From Nitrospiria bacterium (GTDB lineage Bacteria; Nitrospirota; Nitrospiria; JACQBZ01): a DNA stretch of 43,022 nt. Where the stretch lies: positions 1 to 43,022 of the forward strand of contig DATKAN010000006.1 in assembly GCA_035498035.1 (NCBI GenBank), given 5' to 3'. Of the stretch, positions 19,708-43,022 are shown one piece after another. The translations under genes and the position numbers were made by a program. The notes below the pieces were generated by a model. It saw nothing but the letters and a program-made list of their open reading frames with translations. It searched no databases and was not told where the DNA came from. The stretch's first letter is position 1; each line of letters begins with the position of its first letter.

Positions 19708-20670
19708 GTGATCCTTCTGCTGGCCATAATGCTGATCGGTTTCGCCCCGCCGGCGCACGCGGCCGGACCGGCCGTTCACGAGTTTGCGCTGCCGGACGGA
19801 TCGCATCCGCATGATGTCGCGCCGGCGGCCGACGGCGCAGTGTGGTACACGGCCCAGGGCCGCGGCGCGCTGGGACGCCTCGACCCGAAGGGCGCCAGGA
19901 CGAGGGAGATCCTGCTGGGCCGAGGGTCTTCCCCGCACGGCGTCATCGTCGGGCCGGACGGCGCGCCGTGGGTCACGGACTCCGGGCGGAACGCGATCGT
20001 CCGCGTCGATCCGAAGACGTATTCGGTGCGCGCCTTTCCGCTTCCCATCAAAGCGTACGCCAACCTCAACACCGCCGCGTTCGATCACAACGGCACGCTC
20101 TGGTTCACGGGCCAGAGCGGCTATTACGGACGGCTGGACCCGAAGAGCGGCAAGGTATCGGTGTTCGACGCCCCGCGCGGGCCGGGACCCTACGGCATCG
20201 CGACGGCCCCCGACGGCGCCGTCTGGTACGCCTCGCTGGCCGGCTCCCATATCGCCCGCGTCGACCCGGCCTCGGGCCGCCCGACCGTTCTCGACCCGCC
20301 GACGCGCGGTCAGGGCGCGCGGCGGGTCTGGGCCGATTCGAAAAGCCGGGTCTGGGTGAGCGAATGGAATGCCGGGAAGGTCGCCGTCTACGATCCGAAG
20401 ACGGGGCGGTGGAAGGAATGGAAACTGCCCGGTAAAGATCCCCAGGCCTACGCGGTCTATGTCGATGAGAACGACAAGGTGTGGCTCTCCGATTTCGGCG
20501 GCGACGTGATCGTGCGCTTTGACCCGGAGACGGAAGCCTTCACGCCGTTCAAGCTTCCGACCCCCGGGGCGGCGGTCCGGCAGATCCTCGGTCGGCCGGA
20601 GGAAATCTGGATGGCCGAGTCGGCCAACGACAAACTGGCCGTCATCTGCGACCCGTGCCGGTTTAAATGA
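19708..20670 (+). CDS. Secreted beta-propeller protein, Vgb/streptogramin-lyase-like
   Basis: This 320-residue protein has a signal peptide (LLLAIMLIGFAPPAHAA) and a series of about 40-residue blades with recurring LWF/VWY and RVDPKTG-like strands, for example PDGAVWYTAQG, DPKSGKVSVF and EDKVWLSDFG-like DNDKVWLSDFG (read as ENDKVWLSDFGG). This is the six- or seven-bladed propeller seen in virginiamycin B lyase and related proteins. The family is broad; antibiotic lyase activity is not implied, and the signal peptide argues for a periplasmic role. The start is GTG at 19708 with AGGA upstream. It may be read from the rtcB operon, since the gap is only 53 nt. Confidence 0.8.
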   Translation: MILLLAIMLIGFAPPAHAAGPAVHEFALPDGSHPHDVAPAADGAVWYTAQGRGALGRLDPKGARTREILLGRGSSPHGVIVGPDGAPWVTDSGRNAIVRVDPKTYSVRAFPLPIKAYANLNTAAFDHNGTLWFTGQSGYYGRLDPKSGKVSVFDAPRGPGPYGIATAPDGAVWYASLAGSHIARVDPASGRPTVLDPPTRGQGARRVWADSKSRVWVSEWNAGKVAVYDPKTGRWKEWKLPGKDPQAYAVYVDENDKVWLSDFGGDVIVRFDPETEAFTPFKLPTPGAAVRQILGRPEEIWMAESANDKLAVICDPCRFK

Positions 20671-42355: not shown

Positions 42356-42385
42356 TTGACAATCTCCTCCGTTTTTGGATATAGT
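42356..42385 (+). promoter_or_regulatory. Sigma-70 type promoter for the tRNA-Gly locus
   Basis: TTGACA (42356-42361) and TATAGT (42380-42385) are 18 nt apart. Transcription would begin near 42392, before the partial tRNA copy and the full tRNA. Confidence 0.65.
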
Positions 42386-42433
42386 AACTTTCCGCGCTTT
42401 GTTTATCTTTATTATTCTTCAACAACCCGGACG

Positions 42434-42457
42434 CGGGAATAGCTCAGTGGTAGAGCG
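42434..42457 (+). other. 5' part of a tRNA-Gly copy (truncated)
   Basis: The 24 nt from 42434 are identical to the 5' end (acceptor strand plus D-arm) of tRNA-Gly at 42551, and the preceding CCGGA(C/T) is also shared. After position 42457 the sequence diverges and no anticodon arm or 3' end of Gly type follows. It is most likely a remnant of a tandem tRNA duplication. Confidence 0.8.
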
Positions 42458-42550
42458 AGGATTGAGGCGCTCCGGCTGAGAGCCGTCGCTTAGTAAGGCG
42501 ATGCCCGAGCCGGGCTAAAAATTGAATCGGAATCTTCCGACTTACCGGAT

Positions 42551-42625
42551 GCGGGAATAGCTCAGTGGTAGAGCATCGCCTTGCCAAGGCGAGGGTCGCG
42601 GGTTCAAATCCCGTTTCCCGCTCCA
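42551..42625 (+). tRNA. tRNA-Gly (anticodon GCC), CCA encoded
   Basis: The 75 nt fold as a full cloverleaf. The acceptor stem is GCGGGAA with TTCCCGC; the anticodon arm has loop TTGCCAA (anticodon GCC); the T arm includes GGTTCAAATCC. CCA is encoded, and a T6 run follows right after it. A frame on the minus strand here is a known type of false ORF. Confidence 0.97.
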
Positions 42626-42663
42626 TTTTTTATATTCCATTGATTCCCGGTGAACGGGATTTG

Positions 42664-42746
42664 GTTCCGGGAGGAAGGCGCTGGCGCGCAGGATTTAAAT
42701 TCTGCGCCTTGGGCGCAGTGCGTTATCAAATCCCGTCTTCCGCTCC
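42664..42746 (+). pseudogene. Degenerate tRNA-like remnant
   Basis: The last 20 nt (42727-42746) match the 3' part of the intact tRNA-Gly (42605-42624) at 18 of 20 positions. Before it lies an anticodon-arm-like GCAGG/TCTGC with ATTTAAAT between (TAA in the loop, but the loop is one nt too long) and GCGCC-TT-GGCGC-like variable arm. It resembles a decayed class II (Leu-like) tRNA or a composite. The 5' acceptor strand is not found. Confidence 0.5.
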
Positions 42747-42798
42747 GGTTTTATTCCTCTCCTCCACGCTCTTTAAACACGCGACCGGGGGTTTTGAC

Positions 42799-43022
42799 AT
42801 GAGTGTCGCCCTCCCCCTCCACAACCGTGAGCGCAACGCGATCCCGACCTTACGCGCGCTGGCCAACCAGGCTTTCTCGCGCGCGGCCGGGGCCCCCCTG
42901 ATCGAAGGCAACCAAATCCGCCTCCTCATCGACGCGCGGGAAAATTATCCGGCGTGGCTCGATGCGATCCGCGCGGCAAAACGCCATGTTTACTTCGAAA
43001 ACTACATCGTCCAGGAAGACGA
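42799..43022 (+). CDS. Phospholipase D/cardiolipin synthase-like protein (5' end only)
   Basis: The frame opens with ATG 42799 and runs off the window after about 74 codons. It includes GNQIRLLIDARENYPAWLDA and AAKRHVYFENYIVQED, which match the N-terminal part of bacterial cardiolipin synthase/phospholipase D family proteins just before the first HKD motif. The catalytic motifs would lie beyond the window. No signal peptide is evident in the part seen. Confidence 0.7.
   Translation, partial: MSVALPLHNRERNAIPTLRALANQAFSRAAGAPLIEGNQIRLLIDARENYPAWLDAIRAAKRHVYFENYIVQED

Follow-up and report, generated by a model that had tools for sequence, protein, structure and literature searches.

The partial tRNA copy downstream of the tRNA-Gly(GCC) gene at the right end of the analysed DNA is, with a probability of about 0.6, the far boundary of a non-autonomous folded element of about 100 bp that was inserted in the T-loop of this tRNA gene, has spread, carries arms copied from the local tRNA and would depend on an enzyme supplied in trans. 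The analysed DNA, here called the window, is one entire contig (C6, 43022 bases) of a 2.67-Mb genome (G000). Our reading builds on what the comparison of loci shows, namely a breakpoint in the T-loop, a tRNA kept whole, arms that match it, hairpins that covary, sites with and without the element, and tandem arrays. A preliminary description of the locus had noticed an exact 24-nt copy of the tRNA 5′ end upstream and a partial copy of the 3′ end downstream, all behind one promoter, and these observations are confirmed (Table 1). Two features go beyond that description, namely an inverted copy of the T-loop and T-stem behind the tRNA and an inverted 10-mer in front of it.

Table 1. Parts of the tRNA-Gly(GCC) locus, with positions counted from the first base of the window.
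Feature	Position	Strand	Remarks
Sigma-70-like promoter, TTGACA-18-TATAGT	42356–42385	+	upstream of every other part
5′ partial copy, exact tRNA-Gly bases 1–24 (24 nt)	42433–42456	+	also upstream of tRNA-Gly in G008 (L018/L074)
Leader hairpin region including AAGGCGATGC (42495–42504), an inverted copy of tRNA bases 23–32	42470–42516	+	homologous in G008, similar in G012
tRNA-Gly(GCC), intact	42551–42625	+	75.2 bits (Rfam), ARAGORN
Linker/left end of element, T-rich, then CATTGA; compare CATTGAAC in relatives	42626–42652	+	by eye
Left arm AACGGGATTTG, inverted copy of tRNA bases C56–T66 (T-loop/T-stem)	42653–42663	+	
Hairpin C (GCGC-TGGC-GCGC)	42678–42689	+	covaries in relatives; helix 3, 98.5% of cells paired
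Hairpin 2 (CTGCGCC-TTG-GGCGCAG)	42702–42718	+	covaries in relatives; helix 4, 99.2% of cells paired
Match to covariance model R1, 99.5 bits	42653–42738	+	window copy is one of the six members from which the model was built
Right arm, distal copy of the tRNA 3′ part, from T55	42726–42746	+	19/22 to tRNA

Both partial tRNA copies are real and far above chance. In a scan of the window the exact 24-mer has just two occurrences, at 42433 and at 42551 (offset 118), and no reverse-complement copy, and the 22-nt 3′ end of the tRNA is matched 22/22 by the intact copy and 19/22 by the distal copy, the runners-up reaching 15/22 on the plus strand and 16/22 on the minus strand. The tRNA between the two copies is the sole GCC gene found in the genome, and therefore the locus presumably still yields a working tRNA-Gly. 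A similar TTGACA..TATA stretch was seen by eye before tRNA-Gly at three further loci (L063, L070 and L072). Elsewhere in the window (20092–20184), ARAGORN calls a 93-nt tRNA-Arg(acg), which is probably false because it is without Rfam support at gathering scores and ORFs cross the region.

The downstream piece is the far end of a small folded DNA element and not a tRNA. It had been described as a decayed, Leu-like tRNA, a view that had to be abandoned: ARAGORN and Rfam see only the Gly tRNA at the locus, the tRNA covariance score gives no match at E up to 10 in 42626–43022, and conserved, folded counterparts of the stretch are present behind other tRNAs. ARAGORN places tRNA-Leu(TAA) elsewhere in the genome. 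With cmscan, the window locus (E up to 10) and nine related loci (E up to 1) returned tRNAs and otherwise only matches below gathering scores, hence no known RNA family. A DNA search of 98 genomes found the window stretch also behind the tRNA-Gly of G004, with 84% identity over 210 bases, and weaker matches at a tRNA-Arg locus in G004 (73%) and a tRNA-Pro locus in G001 (75%). Set side by side, the loci share one layout, in which the tRNA is followed by a linker of about 27 nt, a left arm, conserved hairpins and a right arm. The linker is T-rich and often carries a TACG or CATTGA motif, the left arm is complementary to the local tRNA from C56 outward, and the right arm is a second copy of the local tRNA from T55/C56 to the tRNA end. 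The whole element is about 100 bp long, and no ORF of at least 100 amino acids lies over the window copy.

Each arm agrees better with the tRNA at its own locus than with other tRNAs. The arm test included 14 of 18 aligned elements (the Arg element of G003 and three further tandem units were omitted), which are partly non-independent since some stand at orthologous tRNAs; the left arm agreed with its own tRNA in 136/168 positions (shuffled mean 106) and the right arm in 224/252 (shuffled mean 152), values reached in none of 100,000 permutations. For the first five left-arm positions alone, 9 of the 100,000 permutations reached the observed value. Changes between orthologous tRNAs are followed as well: tRNA-Ser reads TTCGAAT in G001 but TTCAAAT in G004, a difference mirrored in both arms, and the tRNA is likewise followed by both arms in Gly and by the right copy in Leu(CAA). 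At positions within the arm where the tRNA and its distal copy disagree, the left arm sides with the functional tRNA in 13 of 13 cases from four loci, nine of them from one locus. The left arm is often weak, matching only 6–9 nt in eight of the 14 elements and only 1 nt in the Leu(CAA) element of G012.

Between the arms lies a folded core, the length of which is 83–99 nt by the model in 18 elements behind eight tRNA species. Across these 18 elements, 90.2% of 440 cells are paired and 16 of 25 pairs have changed on both sides, in an alignment that was fitted to the model and so favours the pairing result. Shuffled alignments reached the observed pairing in 0/500 cases for four measures and in 1/500 for the fifth, and slid controls were far lower. 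Broken down by helix, pairing amounts to 98.5% and 99.2% of cells for the two inner hairpins, 85.7% for the outer stem and 74.0% for a small third hairpin. The outer stem was absent from a consensus fold computed without guidance on an earlier set of eight that was misaligned in part.

Hairpin covariation and the allegiance of the left arm to the functional tRNA are also what a functional trailer RNA could display, in which case the RNA would serve the host in processing or regulation and its arms would be under selection to pair with the tRNA. We consider this explanation rather improbable: few tRNAs have the element and the same tRNA occurs in sister genomes without it, predicted tRNA folding does not respond consistently when the left arm is shuffled (lower in 5/11 and higher in 6/11, the arm being wrongly placed in one of the 11, the Leu(CAA) element of G012), and G-T against A-C cells, 16 to 10, give no clear pointer to RNA over single-stranded DNA. 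On the same inconsistent shuffle effect, the idea of an insulator, in which the left arm would protect the folding of the tRNA, was rejected.

The distribution of the element was followed with covariance model R1, since a simpler search proved unspecific: the bare pattern AAGGCGCTGGCGCGC with one mismatch matched 63 of 98 genomes, yet a backwards-read control matched widely too, and therefore the model was used instead. At E ≤ 0.01, R1 matched 10 of 98 genomes of the class and, at E ≤ 0.001, seven of 395 genomes of the phylum, including G016; both searches used strict filters, by which weak matches are lost. The window-like type is present in 7/98 class genomes, namely six of the seven members of family f1 (G000–G004 and G006) and G012 of family f7; in the remaining f1 member, G005, the R1 search found no window-like element. 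The three other matching genomes (G011, G016 and G020, family f6) have different hairpins and were not accepted as the window type: the weak matches in G016 and G020 are related-looking hairpins with no tRNA in the viewed loci, and that in G011 is a different element behind tRNA-Ser. Similar hairpins lie between genes in G016 (L125, L132, L136, L140, L143 and L148) and G020 (L128 and L133), some in tandem, and some copies stand, by eye, just before a pilin-like GFTLIE start. The host tRNAs of the element are Gly(GCC), Arg(CCT), Pro(GGG), Pro(CGG), Pro(TGG), Leu(CAA), Leu(CAG) and Ser(GCT), and the nearest R1 match begins at most about 40 nt from the tRNA end. Among named genomes, an exact pattern search returned four contigs; they bear the titles Nitrospirae or Nitrospiria and come from groundwater and Hainich samples. 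No match to the element was found in phages, plasmids and viral contigs.

A census of nearly all tRNA loci in eight genomes comprised 268 unique loci, of which 254 were testable. It flagged 23 rows; three were dropped because the supposed copy behind tRNA-Ser(CGA) was the neighbouring tRNA-Ser(GGA), and inspection by eye assigned the remaining 20 to the window type (16, including decayed copies at Ser(GCT) in G000 and at Pro(CGG) in both G000 and G001) and to other types (four: Phe and Arg in G012, Thr(CGT) and Ser(GGA) in G002). The last two loci (L237 and L232) have downstream 3′ copies with differing cores. None of 36 loci in G003 and none of 35 in G005 were flagged, in a census that overlooked the Arg element of G003, where the tRNA is truncated, and Leu(CAG) of G012, where the distal copy is decayed. 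An earlier scan had flagged 22/175 loci, two of them owing to a neighbouring tRNA-Ser, against 21/2512 direct and 48/2512 inverted hits in a control of mismatched tRNA pairs. Of the element loci, 11/15 have a trailer motif [TA]TAC no more than 17 nt from the end of the tRNA, against 29/247 of the others; the motif is native at Ser and Pro(TGG), so that no conclusion was drawn from these counts.

Other repeats also adjoin tRNA genes in these genomes. A second family, recognized by eye, consists of an AT-rich palindrome followed by a longer one (of the kind GGAGCAATGGAG) directly at many tRNA 3′ ends (L060 and L053 in G000, L162 in G004, L248 in G002, L282 in G005, L305 and L308 in G006), with several copies standing right after base 73 where CCA is absent. 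Downstream of a tRNA-Gly in G036 (L026), two tandem units carry a 3′ copy from near A58 and an inverted copy of bases 41–53; they are another element type with similar logic.

Sites with and without the element can be compared directly. The Ser(GCT) site is filled in G004 and empty in G003, and in both the tRNA runs into what seems to be the same gene start; the Pro(TGG) site is likewise filled in G004 and empty in G003, with another tRNA next to it; the Pro(GGG) site is filled in G001, and the element is absent in G000, G002, G003, G005 and G006. At Ser and Pro(TGG) the direct repeat reaches 8–10 nt beyond the tRNA into the native trailer (26/31 and 29/30 matches), and in the other loci of the comparison its end coincides with that of the tRNA or lies close to it. 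These repeats suggest, without proving it, that insertion duplicates its target. The sister genomes also bear on the proposal that an old tRNA array decayed through unequal crossing-over. One intact tRNA between two partial copies is indeed what such a history might leave; however, each of the five other family members with a viewed tRNA-Gly(GCC) locus (G001, G002, G004, G005 and G006) has a single tRNA-Gly there instead of three, the downstream unit is no tRNA, and the two copies occur independently in other genomes. We regard array decay as extremely improbable.

The genome G012 carries tandem units, three behind Pro(GGG) and two behind Pro(CGG). The core of the third Pro(GGG) unit is 82% identical to that of the Arg element of G004, a genome of another family, and only 47% and 41% identical to the cores of its two sister units behind the same tRNA. 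The best reading of the compared sequences is that the element has spread to several kinds of tRNA and to two families of the class, because similar cores stand behind different tRNAs and in tandem arrays. Elements at the same tRNA in sister genera are often each other's closest (core identity 92% for Ser and 87% for Leu), and inheritance combined with loss therefore accounts for part of the distribution. G012 also holds, on contig C16 (L178, minus strand, about 470–1070), a nested tRNA-Arg(CCT) with a related-looking but different core. Here, two 5′ halves broken at the T-loop come first, then an intact tRNA flanked by complementary stretches and then four or more 3′ parts, and the acceptor stems differ between outer (GCCCCCG/CGGGGGC) and inner copies (GCCCTCG/CGAGGGC). 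This Arg(CCT) variant seems to bring its own, apparently foreign, tRNA.

Integration and excision at the tRNA 3′ end had been the other cause proposed for the locus. It holds in so far as the 3′ copy bears an insertion footprint, with filled and empty sites, a start at T55/C56 and arrays; the usual island remnant it is not, because tRNAs of several kinds are followed by a conserved core whose hairpins covary. An ordinary integrase footprint would mean that one integrase family produced larger tRNA islands, deletions of which left attL, a conserved attP stretch and attR. The T-loop break, the far 3′ copy and tandem units as in the Dehalococcoides ssrA islands (PMC3146451) speak for such islands, and so does an insertion of about 900 bp (ORFs assessed by eye) that precedes the element at the tRNA-Gly of G012 and ends in a longer 3′ copy. 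Against them stand a core of 83–99 nt with covarying hairpins, kept behind eight tRNA species, the passage of the Ser and Pro(TGG) repeats beyond the tRNA, which is needless for a restored tRNA, and a search of G012 that found no dedicated tyrosine integrase. Taken together, these points make an ordinary integrase footprint unlikely.

The search for a mobilizing enzyme covered several classes. Neither a large serine recombinase nor a reverse transcriptase (PF00078) was found in any of eight genomes, and the latter could have been supplied in trans at an earlier time. Among the three genomes searched for tyrosine recombinases, G000 has a XerC-like and a XerD-like protein and an integrase, the 3′ end of whose gene overlaps tRNA-Arg(TCG), with a tRNA-His adjoining (L216 on contig C63); G004 has two Xer-like proteins and one other, and G012, the genome of which is 85% complete, only one XerD-like and one XerC-like protein. 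The preliminary description saw no integrase, and the window contig, which is whole, indeed gives no tyrosine recombinase match; its suggestion of looking beyond 43 kb led to the integrase at tRNA-Arg(TCG) and the two Xer-like proteins elsewhere in the genome. As regards an integron cassette site (attC) and its integrase, the eight tyrosine recombinases from the three genomes all fall short of the cut-offs set for TIGR02249 and NF011946, and three of them pass the XerA model NF040815, the description of which also names the integron integrase.

Y1 transposases occur in seven of the eight genomes, with 20 matches, and the three tested all matched the RAYT model, one of them above its cut-off. 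At 10 loci with Y1 genes no R1 match was found (11 of the 20 Y1 matches were examined), and at the eleventh the sole R1 match is the tRNA-linked Leu(CAG) element, about 1 kb from the gene. BLAST of five cores against the flanks of eight Y1 genes gave only words of 8–10 nt, and these flanks carry other sequences. RAYT proteins are thus present in the genomes, with no link to the core in the flanks examined, and were set aside as the mover.

The 5′ partial copy has a history of its own. The 24-nt copy and the hairpin that follows it recur upstream of tRNA-Gly in G008, a member of another family, and can be aligned over the hairpin, and in G012 (L023/L067) a related 10-mer lies at the same distance without the 24-nt copy. 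Within 260 nt upstream, AAGGCGATGC with at most one mismatch occurs at 4/30 tRNA-Gly(GCC) loci and at 0/142 loci of other tRNAs; in three families (those of the window, G008 and G012) it lies 56–58 nt upstream, and at the fourth locus 71 nt upstream with one mismatch. Because G004 has only the 3′ element and G008 only the 5′ copy, the sequence comparison indicates that the 5′ and 3′ copies are separate events. Insertion is supported for the 3′ copy, and the 5′ copy with its hairpin is read as a further insertion-like event at this tRNA, independent of the first.

For the element behind the tRNA, we propose that insertion took place in the T-loop of tRNA-Gly between T55 and C56. It left a complete tRNA in front, made of the original 5′ part and one 3′ part, and a second 3′ part behind, as the structure, the relatives and the empty sites show. 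In the outer stem, a copy of the local tRNA 3′ part is paired with an inverted version of that part. That the arms keep in step with the local tRNA is most likely due to copying at the time of insertion or to template switching at the hairpin afterwards, and a recombinase or transposase was probably supplied in trans. A more specific version, to which we give only tentative credit, is that a folded element of about 90 bp inserts in T-loops, duplicates about 30 bp of target that begin in the T-loop and end some 10 nt beyond the tRNA, and remodels its inner arm into the complement of that tRNA, that a variant carries a whole replacement tRNA, and that the enzyme is of a kind new to such insertions. 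If true, rewriting of the inner arm lets one element family live behind many different tRNAs.

tRNA genes are classic landing sites of mobile DNA, and the usual visitors are kilobases long and bound to one tRNA through their integrase. A gene-free folded element with arms that follow the tRNA would, if true, be another way of targeting the T-loop. It would also be a natural setting in which to test whether a repeat keeps up with a functional gene through copying at insertion, template switching or selection. For annotators, the warning is that tRNA fragments of this shape can mark the ends of an element instead of being tRNA pseudogenes. In the literature covered, which leaves out preprints and most subscription papers, no title about such elements was found.

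REP sequences and REPINs are short, non-autonomous and hairpin-forming. The present element resembles the REP/REPIN and RAYT system in being a short hairpin element in genomes of which seven out of eight have Y1 genes, but its core hairpin does not flank the Y1 genes examined, and it stands at tRNA T-loops together with tRNA copies. With islands integrated at tRNA and tmRNA genes, the sublocations of which go back to Williams 2002 (as cited in PMC2647930), it shares a tRNA 3′ copy at the far boundary and an intact tRNA at the near one; in contrast to them, it encodes no integrase, and a large serine recombinase is missing from all eight genomes. The closest footprint is that of the Dehalococcoides islands, which, according to PMC3146451, break ssrA in the T-loop, leave a 20-bp 3′ copy, occur in tandem and use a serine recombinase. 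Site and footprint are the same, whereas the present element is about 100 bp long, is gene-free, has a folded core and an inverted arm and occurs at several tRNA species. Template switching is able to create and maintain hairpins, as stated in PMC8794818, and would make and keep an inverted arm matching nearby sequence; it accounts for the tracking by the arms only and leaves the spread of a conserved core unexplained. Finally, in an archaeal population, tRNA fragments were attributed to a mobile element at a tRNA gene (PMC3293823), a tie between fragments and mobile DNA much like ours, although the present case is bacterial, tiny and recurrent behind many tRNAs, and leaves the tRNA whole.
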